The notes beneath the pieces were generated by a model. It made no database searches. It had not been told where the DNA came from and saw nothing but the letters and a program-made list of their open reading frames with translations. A stretch of DNA of 29,865 bases from a virus: positions 1-29,865 of IMG/VR virus record IMGVR_UViG_3300032006_000056; one strand, 5' to 3'. Made by a program: the position numbers and the translations under genes. The stretch's first letter is position 1; the number at the start of each line of letters is the position of its first letter. This document shows positions 1 to 29,601 of this stretch, one piece after another.

Positions 1-128
1 ACAACATCCGTGGGCGTGGTCGGGCTAACAACATCCGTGGGCGTGGTCGGGCTAACAACATCCGTGGGCGTGGTCGGGCTAACAACATCCGTGGGCGTGG
101 TCGGGCTAACAACATCCGTGGGCGTGGC
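1..128 (-). repeat. 27-bp perfect tandem repeat, 4.7 copies, inside coding sequence
   Basis: Copies start at 1, 28, 55, 82 and 109, and the last is cut short at about 127. The four full copies are identical. The period is a multiple of three and encodes SPTTPTDVV on the minus strand. The window edge falls inside the array, so the copy number is not known and the edge may be an assembly break. Confidence 0.95.
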
Positions 129-1103
129 CTGAGACTGAGACTGAGCCTGAGCCTGAGACTGAGCCTGAGCCTGAGACTGAGACTGAGCCTGAGCCTGAGC
201 CTGAGCCTGAGACTGAGCCTGAGACTGAGACTGAGCCTGTTCCCGTCCTTCAAGAAGCGATATTCGGTCGTTTGCCAAATTTTTGATTATTTCTTCTCGC
301 TCGTTTTCTGGCTTTCCAGCCAGCATTGCCTTTTCGTTTGACGTCAACCACTGTGGTGGGTGTTTATCGCCAATGGACTCTGAAAATTCCTCTTGCCAAG
401 CGTTGGCTAGGCGGATTATGGTCTGATCCTGTTCAGTGGTGCGCCATATTCGTCCGGTCATATTCAGCATTTCTCCATCAGCGCTTACATACCTAAAAGC
501 CCCGTCTGGACTTTCCACTAACATTGCTTCTGTTATTACTGGGTTGCCGTTCACTTCGCGTGTAAACGATACTGTTGTTTTCCCTATCGGTTTGAAACCA
601 CGGTCTCCCAGTTCTTCCAGGCGCTTATCCAAATATTCGCGTCTTTGCTTACCTTCTTCTGTAAGCTGCTCAAGTGCAGCCAACTTTGTCTGACGACCTA
701 ACTGCTCTTCGGCTTGTTTTGCGGCTTGCCGTTGCTGCATCAACTGCCCTGCAACGGTAGAAACGTCCCCCGCCAACGGAGCAGCTAAAGTTCTTCCCAA
801 GACCCCCACCGGAGACTCTCCGTACCCAGGTTGTGCGCCCATGGCTGCAAAACCACGCTGCGCTAAAGCCAGTCCCAATTGCATTTTGGCTAGTTCTTTT
901 GATTCTTGTAACTGTGCCGCGTAGTCTGGGCTTCCCAAAAAATCGGACAGCAAAGCTGTTCGTGTTTCCATTTCTTCTTTGGTAGGAAAAAATTCTTTTT
1001 GAAAACTCGGGCTTTGTCTTAAATAATCCAGTCCCGCAGCGTGTTGGTCTAAAAGGCTTTGAAGGCCACCTTGTCGCCTTGGAATATTGTTTTCGTCAGC
1101 CAT
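1..1103 (-). CDS. Partial glutamine-rich virion-associated protein with C-terminal repeats (3' end cut by window)
   Basis: The frame is open from the ATG at 1103 to the left edge, at least 367 codons with no stop, so the true C-terminus lies outside the window. Residues 1-285 are charged and largely helical, with a coiled-coil-like stretch near residues 125-180 (QQRQAAKQAEEQ, then KQRREYLDKRLEE). They are followed by about 19 Gln-Ala/Gln-Ser dipeptides and then a 9-residue repeat, SPTTPTDVV. It is the last visible gene of the tail module, 12 nt after the Met-rich gene, with a GGAG-type ribosome site before the ATG. By position it may be an internal virion or ejection protein. I do not recognise a family, and the function is unknown. 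Confidence 0.75.
   Translation of the reverse strand, partial: MADENNIPRRQGGLQSLLDQHAAGLDYLRQSPSFQKEFFPTKEEMETRTALLSDFLGSPDYAAQLQESKELAKMQLGLALAQRGFAAMGAQPGYGESPVGVLGRTLAAPLAGDVSTVAGQLMQQRQAAKQAEEQLGRQTKLAALEQLTEEGKQRREYLDKRLEELGDRGFKPIGKTTVSFTREVNGNPVITEAMLVESPDGAFRYVSADGEMLNMTGRIWRTTEQDQTIIRLANAWQEEFSESIGDKHPPQWLTSNEKAMLAGKPENEREEIIKNLANDRISLLEGREQAQSQSQAQSQAQAQAQAQSQSQAQAQSQAQAQSQSQATPTDVVSPTTPTDVVSPTTPTDVVSPTTPTDVVSPTTPTDV
129..240 (-). repeat. 6-bp coding repeat, about 19 units of Gln-Ala / Gln-Ser
   Basis: Units of CAG-GCT or CAG-TCT (minus strand) follow one another without interruption. They differ only at one base, which switches alanine and serine. The reading frame is kept. A tract like this can gain or lose units by slippage without breaking the frame. 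Confidence 0.95.
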
Positions 1104-1809: not shown

Positions 1810-2916
1810 TTAAGATGTAAAAAGGCCGCCTATATTTTTTATAGCCGCTGCGGTTCCAAGAAGGCCCGTACCTGCGCCTGCAACTTGCTGGAATAAACTA
1901 GGTGCAGGGGGTCGTGGCGCAATAACGCCTCTTATTGTGCTTTCTGAAGCAGGTGCGCCCTTGTAAATGTCGGACATGTAACTGACACGAGTGTAAGGCT
2001 CATACAACTGCCTTCTCCTGTTTTCCGCAGCCGCGTCGGCCATGGCTTGCTCAATACCCCGCCTCTGTTGTCCAAACTGCTGCATACTGGACAGGTTCTG
2101 CAACTGCTGACGTTGCGCTTGTTCGGCCGCCCCCAATTGCTGCTGTCCGAGACCGGCCTGCTGAACCCCGAGACCTGCCACTTGACCGCCAATTCCGGCA
2201 ATTCCTTGGCCCATAGCGGTTTGTTGTCCGGCAAGTCCTGTGTAAGCACCGGCTTGTGCCAGTTGCCGCTGTCGGGCTTGCTCAAACGCATTCTGGGCTT
2301 GGGTCAAAGCCGATTGGTAGCCTGCCGAGCGCAGTTGTGCCGCCGTTTTAGCTTGTCGATCAAGCACGTTGCGGACAATTTCGGCTCTTTCAATCCCCTG
2401 CCGGGAACCCCCAAAAGCTCCTGCGCCTACCGCCCCTGCGTCCAAGGTTCTTTGCGCTATATCGCCTTCTCGTTGGATGTCGGCCAAAGCCGCTTGCACC
2501 ACGGCTTCTTCGTAAGGGTCCATGTACTGCGAAACGGTAGTCGGGTCAAACTCCCCCGAAACCCCTGCCAAAGCACCATAAGCAGGAGCCAGTGCTGCCG
2601 TCGCTTCGTCAATACGAGAGACGCCTGTTCCAAATAAGTCTTGTGCCGTTCCCAGCGTTCCCAGTCCCGTGCCAATCGTGCCATAACCAGTAGTGGCAAG
2701 AGGAGCGTACCCCCCAATACCTGCCGTTCCCATGCCTCCTAAGTAGTCGTAAACCGAGGCTTCAAGAGGATCTGCGCCAATAACTTGTTGCTCTGGAAGC
2801 CGGATAGGGATGTTGGCAAGCGTTTTGCCTGCTTCTAAGAGACCTAGTTTATAGGCTTCAATATCAGGAGCTTCGCGAACAATCTGCTCGGTGACGGTAA
2901 TGTTAGGGTCGGCCAT
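1810..2916 (-). CDS. Probable internal virion / DNA ejection protein
   Basis: 368 aa. The N-terminal 50 residues are followed by a Gly/Ala/Thr-rich region. Then comes a long Gln/Ala-rich helical region (about residues 130-320) containing YMDPYEEAVVQ and GAFGGSRQGIERAE, a signature I associate with internal or ejection proteins of marine podoviruses. The C-terminus is glycine-rich and moderately hydrophobic (about residues 340-365), which could insert in membranes. It starts 3 nt after the stop of the 790-aa gene. The Ala/Gly/Gln composition also resembles T7-type inner core proteins. The assignment is by character and position only. Confidence 0.65.
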   Translation of the reverse strand: MADPNITVTEQIVREAPDIEAYKLGLLEAGKTLANIPIRLPEQQVIGADPLEASVYDYLGGMGTAGIGGYAPLATTGYGTIGTGLGTLGTAQDLFGTGVSRIDEATAALAPAYGALAGVSGEFDPTTVSQYMDPYEEAVVQAALADIQREGDIAQRTLDAGAVGAGAFGGSRQGIERAEIVRNVLDRQAKTAAQLRSAGYQSALTQAQNAFEQARQRQLAQAGAYTGLAGQQTAMGQGIAGIGGQVAGLGVQQAGLGQQQLGAAEQAQRQQLQNLSSMQQFGQQRRGIEQAMADAAAENRRRQLYEPYTRVSYMSDIYKGAPASESTIRGVIAPRPPAPSLFQQVAGAGTGLLGTAAAIKNIGGLFTS

Positions 2917-2918
2917 AA

Positions 2919-5291
2919 TTAAGCCCTCATCTCAAAGTTACGCATCATGTTATAAAGATTCTGTGCCCCACGGTAACGGTCGCCTTTGCCTGTGGGGTCA
3001 GCGCCACGAACCGCTCGTGCGTTTATGACGAACTCCCCATCCGACAACATGGCGGGAATGTCGTCCGAGCGTTCTGTGCCGGGGCCTTCTACCAACAAAT
3101 CGCGTTCTGGAAACTGAGCCAGCCCTCCGCCCTTAGCAAACAAGTATGGGTCTAAAGCTTGCCCAGAAAACGCAGTATCCGCAGCAGTTACCGGGGTACG
3201 CTCAGGGGCAGGCTCGCGTGAAAAGTTAGGATCAGGAATCAAAGCTGCGCCAATACCCGTGTTTAAGTTACCGGAGGGGTCGTTTGAAAAAGCGTAAGGG
3301 TTCAAAGAAGCCGCATCAAACGCATACGGCGATTCCGTGCTTGCCACAGGAGTGGTGACAACAGGAGCGGGTTGAGCTTCGGCAACCGTTGGAGCAAAGG
3401 CAGGGGTCGGATATGAAGGAACCGTTGCAATACCTCGGGTAAGCACGTCTGTATCTATGAGGTCGTCAAACTTCCCCGTGGCCTGTGCCACAGCCAATGG
3501 AAACCCCTTAGCCCCCGTCGAAGTAAGATTAAGGGCTTTTCCTATGGGCTTTATCATTTGCATTTGTGAAGCGACTCCCATTCCCGGTCCAATAGGAGGA
3601 AGTCGCATGGGACCAGAAAGATTAAAAACCCCTCCAGGTGTCTGTAGCTCCTGGGGGCCTATGTTTCTCCAGGAGGGTTCCGTGGCCTGAAACATCTCGT
3701 CGGCGATGCCCCTTGGCGCACTGCTTCGTATAACATATTCTTGGTATTGACCTACAGGCCAGATCATCGCACCTCTACGAGCCTGCGCCATTGGAGACTG
3801 GTATTCCCCATAAGTCTCGCCCCTTGTTCCCCAAGGAGTGCCTTCGCTCCTGTCTTCGCTCGTAATGTTTCCTAATGTTCCGCGATACACCTCGTAAGGA
3901 GTGCTTACGCCTGAAACATAAGTCTCAAAAGGGCGTGTTCGAGTAAAGGCTCCCCCCGGCATATACGGGTTTGTTGGCCGATAAAAAACACCCAACGGGT
4001 ACGGGTTTGTCGCAGGGTCTTCCACCGCAGGGTCTGGCATGTGATGCCACGCGACGTTCCCTGTAATGCCACTCAAATCGGTAGGTTTCGGGGCACCCAG
4101 CCACCCCGTGGCTCTAGGAATACCGCGAGCGTCTAAAGACCTTAAATAACGGGTGATGTCGGGTTCCTGAACAACGCCACCCTCTTGGTATTTAGGCGTT
4201 TCAACATGCCCTCCTTCTTTGGCAAAAAGGGTTGGCGAAAGAGAACGGTCATCAAGAAGAAAAGGGGCACGATGACGCTTTAGGCTTGCTTGGTACTCTG
4301 CATCGCTCTCGCCTGGTTTCCTGTCGGTGTACCAGAACGGGTTTTGCGCCTTTAATCGCTCCTCGTACTGTGCGAGGGTCAGTCCTTCAGGGTCGTCTAC
4401 ATCAAAACCCCCTAAAGCCTTGATGGCTCCAATTCCCAAAGCGCCTATGCCCAGTGCTTTGGGCCAGTTAAACTTATCCTCTTTGTCATCGTCTTTTGTT
4501 TCCTGTGTGCGACGTTGCTGTGTGCGATCTTGCTGTGCAGCTTCCTCAAGCAACGCTTTCTGGGCACCACGTCCTGCCGCTTGAGCTTCCCCCCTTCGTA
4601 GCGCTTCGCGAGAACTACCTTTTATCAACTCGCGCAACTCTTCTTTGGTTAATTCACCCTTTCCGCGAGTCGCCTTCTGGCCTGCCTTAGAGGCCTTAGA
4701 GGAAGGGAATTGGCGGTCTGTAGGATAATCCCACGGGCCCGCCCACGGGCCCGTTGCATCTGGGTTAAAAATTAAAACATCGTCAGGCTGGGGCTTAAAC
4801 ACGTTGTCCCACGCGCCTGTTGCTGCACCAATGACGTCTGTTCCAATGCCTTTAAATGTGCCATATATATCGCTTCCAATGCCTTTTACCGCACCATAAA
4901 CATCCCCCGGAATGTTCCCCAAGAAATCTCCTGCGGCACCAAAAGCATCAAAAATCTTGTCGAAAAAGAACTCAGGAGCCCCTGTTACAGGGTTAAGGCT
5001 GTTTAACTCGTCTCCAACAACGTATCGCCTCGGATCAAGGCCCATGTCGCGCATCTGGTTAAATAAAAGCGCCTTGACTTTTGGGTTGGCGTCAAGAACT
5101 TCCATCGGTACGACCGTCTCGCCCTCTGCCGCGTGGACCACATAAATGTCCCCGTTTCGTCCATATTCGGCCAGTTTTTGGGCCTCTTTCTGCAAAGAAC
5201 CCAGCCCAATCGGGGCTAACGCATAAGCCGGAGAAGCATCAAGAAAAGACTGTAGTCCTGTATCCGCGTGAGTGTAAGCCTGTGCTGCCAT
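2919..5291 (-). CDS. Large virion protein with tape-measure-like C-terminus
   Basis: I place the start at 5291, giving 790 aa. This ATG overlaps the stop of the upstream gene as TGATG, whereas the longer frame to 5345 would run through that gene. Residues 1-120 hold a compact domain (HAAEGETVVPMEVLDANPKV, then MGLDPRRYVVGDELNSLNP). Next come Gly/Asp-rich segments (about 120-180), a charged Arg/Glu/Gln region (about 200-270), and a long Pro/Gly-rich part. The C-terminus carries GPGTERSDDIPAMLSDGEFV, a motif common near the ends of phage tail or tape-measure-like proteins. It is probably a tail or ejection component, but the precise role is unknown. Confidence 0.65.
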   Translation of the reverse strand: MAAQAYTHADTGLQSFLDASPAYALAPIGLGSLQKEAQKLAEYGRNGDIYVVHAAEGETVVPMEVLDANPKVKALLFNQMRDMGLDPRRYVVGDELNSLNPVTGAPEFFFDKIFDAFGAAGDFLGNIPGDVYGAVKGIGSDIYGTFKGIGTDVIGAATGAWDNVFKPQPDDVLIFNPDATGPWAGPWDYPTDRQFPSSKASKAGQKATRGKGELTKEELRELIKGSSREALRRGEAQAAGRGAQKALLEEAAQQDRTQQRRTQETKDDDKEDKFNWPKALGIGALGIGAIKALGGFDVDDPEGLTLAQYEERLKAQNPFWYTDRKPGESDAEYQASLKRHRAPFLLDDRSLSPTLFAKEGGHVETPKYQEGGVVQEPDITRYLRSLDARGIPRATGWLGAPKPTDLSGITGNVAWHHMPDPAVEDPATNPYPLGVFYRPTNPYMPGGAFTRTRPFETYVSGVSTPYEVYRGTLGNITSEDRSEGTPWGTRGETYGEYQSPMAQARRGAMIWPVGQYQEYVIRSSAPRGIADEMFQATEPSWRNIGPQELQTPGGVFNLSGPMRLPPIGPGMGVASQMQMIKPIGKALNLTSTGAKGFPLAVAQATGKFDDLIDTDVLTRGIATVPSYPTPAFAPTVAEAQPAPVVTTPVASTESPYAFDAASLNPYAFSNDPSGNLNTGIGAALIPDPNFSREPAPERTPVTAADTAFSGQALDPYLFAKGGGLAQFPERDLLVEGPGTERSDDIPAMLSDGEFVINARAVRGADPTGKGDRYRGAQNLYNMMRNFEMRA

Positions 5292-19252: not shown

Positions 19253-19702
19253 TTAAAAATGCAGGATGTCTTCGGGCTCCTGTATAACCGCGATAACCTC
19301 ATCATCGTTTAGTACGCGGACCTCGCCCCCGTCTATCTTAAAACGAGCCCCCGCATAGCGACCAAAAATAACCCAGTCTTTTTCATTACACCACGGACCT
19401 TCTGGGAACTTCTCCGTGTCTTTGTATGCAAGCGGCCCTGCTTTTAGTACATAACCGCAAACCGTGGCTACCGATTCCCGGTCAATTACCGCGTCAGGAA
19501 TAATGACGCCGCTTTCCGTCTTACCTTTCCCTCTGTAAGGAAGAATAAGAAGACGCCACCCTGTGGGTTTGGGTAATCTCGTTAGAGAATCGGCATCAAG
19601 TCGCTCAGGGTCAAGAATTCTTTCGTCAGGCGTTACATACGCCTCTTCAACAGAAACTGAATTTTCTTCTGTACCTTCTTCAGGATCAGATTTATCAATC
19701 AT
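19253..19702 (-). CDS. GroES-like co-chaperonin
   Basis: 149 aa. Residues 44-149 have the GroES/Cpn10 order: PTGWRLLILPYRGKGKTESG, the mobile loop around SGVIIPD (64-70), then VCGYVLKAGPLAYKD, KDWVIFGRYAGARFKIDGGE and LNDDEVIAVI. Residues 1-43 are an acidic extension absent from the usual ~95-aa bacterial protein. No GroEL gene is visible, so it would cap the host GroEL, as T4 gp31 does for capsid folding. Placement directly before scaffold and capsid agrees with that role. The start overlaps the previous stop (TAATG). This is a functional analogue of T4 gp31, and host-range effects are possible. Confidence 0.85.
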   Translation of the reverse strand: MIDKSDPEEGTEENSVSVEEAYVTPDERILDPERLDADSLTRLPKPTGWRLLILPYRGKGKTESGVIIPDAVIDRESVATVCGYVLKAGPLAYKDTEKFPEGPWCNEKDWVIFGRYAGARFKIDGGEVRVLNDDEVIAVIQEPEDILHF

Positions 19703-20363: not shown

Positions 20364-20741
20364 TTATCGTTTAGCACTCATATAAGCAGTCATTCCCATA
20401 TAGGCACCTACAATACCAGACATTCCTATATAAAAAAGGCCGAAAAGGTCTGCTAAGACCTCAATCCGGCTATCTGGGAAAATAGGCAGGAAAACAAGCC
20501 CCGTAAAAAGCAGCATTCCTATAAGAGAAAGCCACGCCATGTTTTTTTGCGCGTCTGCTTTTTCTTCTTGGGTTTCCGCTTCCTGTATAGCCTTTTTAGC
20601 GGCCAACTCTTTGTCGCTAACCACTCCGTCGCCGTCTATATCGTATTCTTCGTAAGCACTGTCTTTTTGCAGGTTCTTTTTGCCACGAGCCGAAGCTGAC
20701 TTCGTGCTTGTTTTTGGACGTATCCTTGGGCGAACCGCCAT
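20364..20741 (-). CDS. EF-hand plus two-TM small membrane protein
   Basis: 125 aa. A very basic N-terminus (1-25) is followed by a canonical EF-hand loop at residues 34-45 (DIDGDGVVSDKE: Asp 34, 36, 38; Glu 45 at position 12), a charged helix, and two membrane segments (about 70-88, LIGMLLFTGLVFLPIF; about 95-118, LFGLFYIGMSGIVGAYMGM). The loop has the full set of Ca-binding positions. Single EF-hands of this type also occur in dockerin-like domains. Ca-controlled membrane function is inference. It overlaps the stop of the PqqA-like gene as TAATG. Confidence 0.78.
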   Translation of the reverse strand: MAVRPRIRPKTSTKSASARGKKNLQKDSAYEEYDIDGDGVVSDKELAAKKAIQEAETQEEKADAQKNMAWLSLIGMLLFTGLVFLPIFPDSRIEVLADLFGLFYIGMSGIVGAYMGMTAYMSAKR

Positions 20742-20824
20742 TAAAACAACGGCTCCTCGTCGGGTGCGTAGGCACTGATCTCACAACTCAGGTTAATAAT
20801 GCGTAGTGTTGGTTTCTCGTACAT
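20741..20824 (-). CDS. PqqA-like precursor peptide
   Basis: 27 aa, found by hand. The product begins MYEKPTLRII, has Cys14-Glu15-Ile-Ser-Ala-Tyr19, and ends in the acidic PDEEPLF. PqqA peptides are 22-29 aa with Trp/Lys-Pro near the start and a Glu-x3-Tyr core that PqqE (radical SAM, with PqqD) joins through a carbon bond to make PQQ. Here Glu15 and Tyr19 have the exact spacing, and the KP and the acidic tail ending in Phe resemble alphaproteobacterial PqqA. The SD sequence GGAG is 5 nt before the ATG; the start is 2 nt after the upstream stop and its own stop overlaps the next ATG. No PqqB-E gene is present, so host enzymes would be needed. Confidence 0.68.
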   Translation of the reverse strand: MYEKPTLRIINLSCEISAYAPDEEPLF

Positions 20825-20826
20825 AG

Positions 20827-21234
20827 TTACTCCACACGGTTCCTAAGAACCTGCTCTTTCAAGTTATCTATCTCCATCTCCATCTTACGCGCATCCTCAC
20901 GCAAACGGTCGATATTTATTGTATTGTGCCGACCTGTCTCTAGCTCCACCGCCATCTTCTCTACCTGCTTCGTCAGGTGATTGATGAGCATAAACTGCTC
21001 CGAGTCATCAGGTAAGGCACCTAGCTCACCCAACGGCCAGCGGATACGGAAGTCTGTGTTCTTCTCCAGGTCTTTCTCAATCAGCTTAAAGTTCGTCTCA
21101 ATCGCGTTTAGCCGTTCTTGTATCCCGAAAAACGCCCAAACCCCCACAGCTACAGCCATAACGACTGAAATTAAGTTCTTCAAGCTCAGATCTACAGAAC
21201 TGCTGTCCCGTACTCGAATCGAGTCTTCGGGCAT
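20827..21234 (-). CDS. Membrane-anchored coiled-coil protein (holin/spanin-like)
   Basis: 135 aa. A short charged N-terminus (1-18) precedes one membrane segment (about 19-38, LISVVMAVAVGVWAFFGIQE). A long charged coil runs to the C-terminus, with KLIEKDLEKNTDF, SEQFMLINHLTKQVEKMAVE and DNLKEQVLRNRVE. The layout suits an i-spanin or a holin-associated protein with a periplasmic coil. I also recall similar proteins near holins of marine phages. The stop is 2 nt before the PqqA-like start. Alternative: a virion-associated membrane protein. Confidence 0.72.
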   Translation of the reverse strand: MPEDSIRVRDSSSVDLSLKNLISVVMAVAVGVWAFFGIQERLNAIETNFKLIEKDLEKNTDFRIRWPLGELGALPDDSEQFMLINHLTKQVEKMAVELETGRHNTINIDRLREDARKMEMEIDNLKEQVLRNRVE

Positions 21235-29386: not shown

Positions 29387-29424
29387 AAGAGCCGCAAAAA
29401 CCTCCGAGGGTAAACACCCAAAAA

Positions 29425-29565
29425 CGGACGCAAACTCGACGCGGACTCGACGCGGACTCGACGCGGACTCGGGCGGAACTCGGACTCGAACTCGGACGGA
29501 ACTCGGGCGGAACTCGGGCGGAACTCGGGCGGAACTCGGACGCAAACTCGAGCGAACTCGGACGC
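29425..29565. repeat. 11-bp repeats with an ACTCG core upstream of the GP88-like promoter
   Basis: The core ACTCG recurs about 13 times, mostly 11 bp apart (unit GGGCGGAACTC or GACGCGGACTC), with a few 6, 10 and 12-bp steps. It lies between the terminator of the upstream gene and the promoter of the GP88-like gene, and is non-coding. The helical-turn period suggests a protein lattice or a structural role. Confidence 0.85.
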
Positions 29566-29567
29566 AC

Positions 29568-29601
29568 AAAAAAAGGCCCCTGAAGAATTTTCAGGGGCCT
29601 T
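29568..29601 (-). terminator. Rho-independent terminator after the right-edge gene
   Basis: Minus-strand stem of about 11 bp (29573-29583 with 29591-29601, AAGGCCCCTGA / TCAGGGGCCTT), a 7-nt loop, then seven Us from the As at 29568-29574. It is 24 nt after the stop codon at 29625. Confidence 0.92.

Follow-up and report, generated by a model that had tools for sequence, protein, structure and literature searches.

The question raised by this locus is whether a very short gene in the structural operon of a marine phage encodes a version of PqqA, and what a phage would do with it. Bacteria cut the cofactor PQQ out of the peptide PqqA; in many of them, PQQ serves the periplasmic dehydrogenases for methanol, ethanol, glucose and other substrates. 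The window, meaning the whole stretch of DNA analyzed, is a 29,865-base virus record with a G+C content of 50%. The features discussed below are listed in Table 1.

The product of the 84-bp, 27-codon ORF is MYEKPTLRIINLSCEISAYAPDEEPLF. Its ATG lies 2 bases past the stop codon of the upstream gene, its stop codon overlaps the start of the downstream gene (TAATG), and GGAG is found 5 bases before the ATG. The initial annotation had described a good ribosome site and coupling to both neighbors, and both descriptions were borne out, as were KP near the start (K4-P5), the E15-x3-Y19 core and an acidic tail with F27 as its last residue. The record also contains genes for a terminase (phrog_38), an SU10-like portal, a GroES-like protein and GP88. 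The operon had been labelled head/lysis; its terminase, portal and GroES-like genes agree with the first half of that label, but the downstream 'holin' matched Phage_holin_3_6 at 17.2 bits, below the cut-off of 28.4 bits. The GroES-like co-chaperonin gene (phrog_3188) occupies positions 19253-19702, within the structural operon. Low-complexity repeats lie towards the two ends of the window (1-260 and about 29400-29600), possibly as assembly stop points, with reading frames of NIRGRGRA / SQAQ type at the left end and RVRVRVPPE type at the right end.

Table 1. Positions of the peptide gene, its signals and neighbors in the window, and of PqqA genes in other phages
Feature	Sequence	Position	Strand	Basis or remark
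PqqA-like 27-aa peptide gene	Window	20741..20824	minus	ATG start; copies in L163 and L164
Codon 5, Pro of the K-P pair (K4-P5), leader-like N-terminal part	Window	20810..20812	minus	Sequence
Codon 15, Glu15, aligns to crosslinked Glu of PqqA	Window	20780..20782	minus	Alignments; 3/3 phage copies
Codon 19, Tyr19, aligns to crosslinked Tyr of PqqA	Window	20768..20770	minus	Alignments; 3/3 phage copies
GGAG, Shine-Dalgarno-like, 5 bases 5' of peptide ATG	Window	20830..20833	minus	Sequence
Upstream neighbor, 135-aa coiled-coil protein	Window	20827..21234	minus	phrog_20984; 'fibrinogen-like coiled coil' in some GenBank phages
Downstream neighbor, 125-aa membrane protein, EF-hand-like stretch	Window	20364..20741	minus	phrog_27150; weak holin-like match
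PqqA gene	Venkman (L286)	3004-3075		Between genes on the other strand; nothing annotated on PqqA strand
PqqA gene	Melnitz-1 (L285)	3001-3075		Nothing annotated on PqqA strand
PqqA gene	Uncultured Manatee Spring podovirus (L287)	2119-2190		Nothing annotated on PqqA strand
PqqA gene	MEP402 (L288)	621-692		Nothing annotated on PqqA strand
PqqA gene	P19250A (L474)	2001-2054		Nothing annotated on PqqA strand
PqqA gene	MEP301 (L475)	2001-2060		Nothing annotated on PqqA strand

IMG/VR was scanned with a pattern of the peptide's residues, which returned two further contigs, L163 (the same contig as L001) and L164; a second and a third pattern gave the same two. The peptide of L163 is identical to that of the window, that of L164 carries S13N, and Glu15 and Tyr19 are invariant in all three copies. 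The three genes differ at 8 codons, 7 synonymously and 1 non-synonymously, where a silent share of 21% is expected for unweighted changes. The chance of a 7:1 split is ∼1e-4 (unweighted), or 2e-3 if one third of changes are silent. Since seven of the eight differing codons are synonymous, the gene is under selection at the protein level; it is a real coding gene, more than a chance ORF. Pattern matches L161 and L162 were rejected as unrelated, having little in common with the peptide beyond MYEKP. When genome contigs were scanned for a pattern built on the residues of this peptide, 8 loci matched and no PqqA-like gene was among them; tblastn of the peptide against GenBank phages and plasmids gave no match.

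The surroundings of the gene change from contig to contig. An unrelated 160-aa gene lies upstream of it in L163, and the AAGGAG Shine-Dalgarno site 5 bases before the ATG is retained there despite the different upstream gene. On the 3' side, L163 and L164 have sequence that the window lacks, which in L163 contains a 59-aa gene, and other contigs with the neighboring coiled-coil gene carry different small genes after it. The peptide gene is a selected, movable small gene of narrow distribution. Its conservation beside the holin in marine phages, which the initial annotation had proposed as a check, proved narrow: three contigs carry the gene, the neighborhood changes and relatives have other genes in that place. 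In L163 (2-1540) the coiled-coil gene is 93% identical to that of the window and the terminase only 54%; the terminase lies close downstream, a gene order rearranged with respect to the window phage. The terminase of the window is 58-66% identical to those of HTVC027P, HTVC023P and 023Pt_psg01, and the coiled-coil gene beside the peptide is common to the window and this HTVC027P-like pelagiphage group. In contrast to the window, the search of GenBank phage records found no copy of the peptide, and in the relatives examined the coiled-coil gene is succeeded by different small genes.

Identity with PqqA was assessed with family models and profiles. PF08042 (cut-off 21.1 bits), a match to which had been suggested as a check, did not match the peptide even at E values as high as 10; three known PqqAs put through the same scan scored 36-45 bits. 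NCBIfam and PHROGs models did not match the peptide either. A mixed-PqqA profile scored it at 1.9 bits, a value reached by 4% of shuffles, and a profile of 115 PqqA sequences at 6.7 bits (0.2% of shuffles). An EIN/EVN-only profile was unconvincing at 4.6 bits (0.7% of shuffles). A KP-type EIN/EVN profile, from a subset picked after the fact, gave 10.4 bits, reached by 21 of 100,000 shuffles and ranking first among ∼15,400 short ORFs. The lack of any family-model match and the bare score with the mixed profile are consistent with an unrelated small phage peptide, for example a partner of the adjoining membrane protein, that is PqqA-like by convergence or chance.

The peptide was then compared directly with cellular PqqAs. 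PF08042 searches found PqqA over cut-off in 64 of 398 genomes of the phylum of G001 and 69 of 385 genomes of the class of G346, and a profile search, with a profile that included the window's peptide, found matches in 59 of 246 genomes of the order of G346, for which the label Rhodobacterales rests on plasmid matches. The comparison set comprised 135 distinct cellular peptides pooled from both kinds of search, and a set of 115 from PF08042 alone was used in the ungapped test. In the ungapped comparison the peptide's score was reached by 0 of 50,000 shuffles and by 0 of 20,415 other short ORFs from related phage contigs; with gaps, against the 135, it was reached by 1 of 20,000 shuffles and again by 0 of the 20,415 ORFs. 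These tests were run on a resemblance already noticed. A reader could have thought of many other families, so tail probabilities of 1e-4 to 1e-5 need discounting, which favors the unrelated peptide.

Against chance likeness stands the alignment itself, which keeps register along almost all of the peptide (start-to-P distance, P-x9-E-x3-Y and LF tail). The best cellular partners, MAWSKPSIREIECGMEINMYGPDEDGGVVLF and MAWTKPTLKEIACGMEINMYAPAEDEPVLF, are of the long-tailed alphaproteobacterial type (Rhodobacterales, Sinorhizobium), which at 30-35 aa is of the same length class as the 27-aa phage peptide. Common to both are aromatic-x-K-P close to the start, the P-x9-E, E-I-x-x-Y and Y-A/G-P motifs, and an acidic tail with LF at its end. 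KP is the commonest pair at the place of K4-P5 (56 of 135 cellular PqqAs); in the W-x-[KTA]-P region the peptide has K4-P5 and P-x9-E, with Trp replaced by Tyr2. It differs from the long-tailed type in W to Y2, G to S13, C14 for the usual M/L/F and N to S17, and its gene does not adjoin pqqB-E and has no Pfam match. Peptides of the long-tailed type are encoded on named plasmids from Salipiger, Mameliella, Alloyangia, Leisingera and Sinorhizobium, where many copies carry a pqqA annotation, and in G346 and G391 pqqE lies about 2-3 kb from the gene for such a peptide. Three viral contigs (L367-L369) have a VAEVACGMEINMYAKAALK stretch of alphaproteobacterial PqqA type. The PqqA likeness claimed at the outset was upheld by the similarity to the long-tailed type, the invariant E15 and Y19 and the protein-level selection, but not by PF08042, NCBIfam or PHROGs. 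Taken together, the alignments and profiles make homology with PqqA probable, short of proof.

PqqA is also found on other phages. A canonical PqqA query against GenBank phages matched the OM43 phages Melnitz (four isolates), Venkman, P19250A, MEP301, MEP401 and MEP402, and an uncultured podovirus from Manatee Spring. No PqqA annotation was found on the PqqA strand in the six records read, and the MEP401 match was likewise without a listed feature. At 23-30 codons such genes are short enough for automatic annotation to miss; short-gene cut-offs probably hide those of the isolated OM43 phages and of the podovirus. In the text of the Melnitz paper, PQQ is mentioned solely as an ingredient of the medium (PMC9004378). 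A PqqA has been published for Lake Baikal phage VP_266, whose population is predicted to infect methylotrophs and encodes methanol dehydrogenase (PMC7678222), and pqqA is among the viral genes listed in a reservoir study (PMC13188868). In IMG/VR the canonical pattern was found in at least 120 contigs (L165-L284), most with good ribosome sites. Matches at 100% in 'Acinetobacter phage MD-2021a' were rejected as phage genes, the contig carrying a bacterial pqq operon and chromosomal genes. That record (L476, CAKLQF020000010.1) covers a bacterial ppk and pqq operon region and is apparently a mislabelled chromosome contig.

A scan for PqqE over cut-off or a PQQ_2 match was negative in all 40 viral records covered (the window and two sister contigs included; many are fragments), and found both in two control bacteria. 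For PqqA-bearing viral records other than the window the count is 0 of 36, and of ∼30 covered among the at least 120 canonical contigs none had PqqE over cut-off or a PQQ dehydrogenase domain. The window, a virus record that may be a fragment, has terminase and portal genes and the lone pqqA-like gene, and neither PqqE nor a PQQ_2 domain. A lone pqqA-like gene without PqqE is likewise the arrangement in the phages of methylotrophs (VP_266; Melnitz, Venkman, P19250A, MEP301/401/402). The OM43-phage PqqA is of the canonical short type (MWTKPSATEMRFGFEVTMYVMNK) and belongs to other phage groups, whereas that of the window is divergent and lies inside a structural operon. Phage pqqA is a kind of gene already known, and the window gene is a divergent version. 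This precedent, together with the in-register match and the absence of an equally good PqqA match among the 20,415 other short ORFs, makes an unrelated peptide unlikely.

We lean towards the reading that the peptide is a phage version of PqqA, divergent in sequence, with which the phage supplies host PqqB-E. The N-terminal part of PqqA binds PqqD, and PqqE joins Glu16 to Tyr20 (PMC10906245). In Acinetobacter PqqA, replacement of Glu by Asp or of Tyr by Phe abolishes PQQ, and PqqA is produced in large excess over the enzymes (PMC2294125). Given this excess and the roles of PqqD and PqqE, a phage need only add precursor; since one PqqA is consumed per PQQ and the enzymes are reused, an 84-bp gene would be enough for a phage that gains from more PQQ. 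The gene most likely derives from an alphaproteobacterium whose own PqqA is long-tailed. Co-translated with structural genes, the peptide would probably appear at a late stage of infection. If it behaves as PqqA does, its N-terminal half (Y-E-K-P...) may dock on host PqqD and host PqqE may link Glu15 to Tyr19, after which host proteases, PqqB and PqqC would complete PQQ for the PQQ-dependent dehydrogenases of the host. Likeness to the Rhodobacterales-type PqqA is no proof of the host; the nearest sequenced phages mostly infect SAR11 (pelagiphages), and the window contains no tRNA genes as a host clue.

A reworked PqqA that uses host PqqD/PqqE for something other than PQQ, whether as a viral decoy or as the precursor of a distinct Glu-Tyr crosslinked peptide, is rather improbable, although from the residues concerned the altered Y2 and S13 would leave room for either. 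As a decoy, a PqqA-derived peptide would bind PqqD (or PqqE), be poorly processed, and slow host PQQ production or divert the machinery. Trp is present in 135 of 135 cellular PqqAs (selection of the set partly required W), and the residue two before Glu is G in 132, A in 2 and S in 1; the phage peptide has Y2, S13 (N13 in L164) and C14 for M/L/F, as if freed from efficient turnover. Yet the serine has that one cellular counterpart, blocking PQQ has no known benefit, and the retention of E15 and Y19 in all copies is needless for a decoy and appears to fit a substrate better, so that we regard a decoy as quite improbable. That host PqqD/PqqE or a related radical-SAM enzyme crosslinks the peptide into a product other than PQQ is very improbable: the E-x3-Y core is kept while the flanking S13, C14 and S17 diverge from PqqA, but the window has no PqqE-like enzyme, nothing of such a kind is known, and the long PqqA-type tail (..YAPDEEPLF) is retained.

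With a divergent PqqA as the preferred reading, the phage probably feeds or interferes with host PQQ production. If several unrelated phage groups bring only the consumable precursor peptide and rely on the host for the enzymes, PqqA would be among the cheapest of phage metabolic genes.
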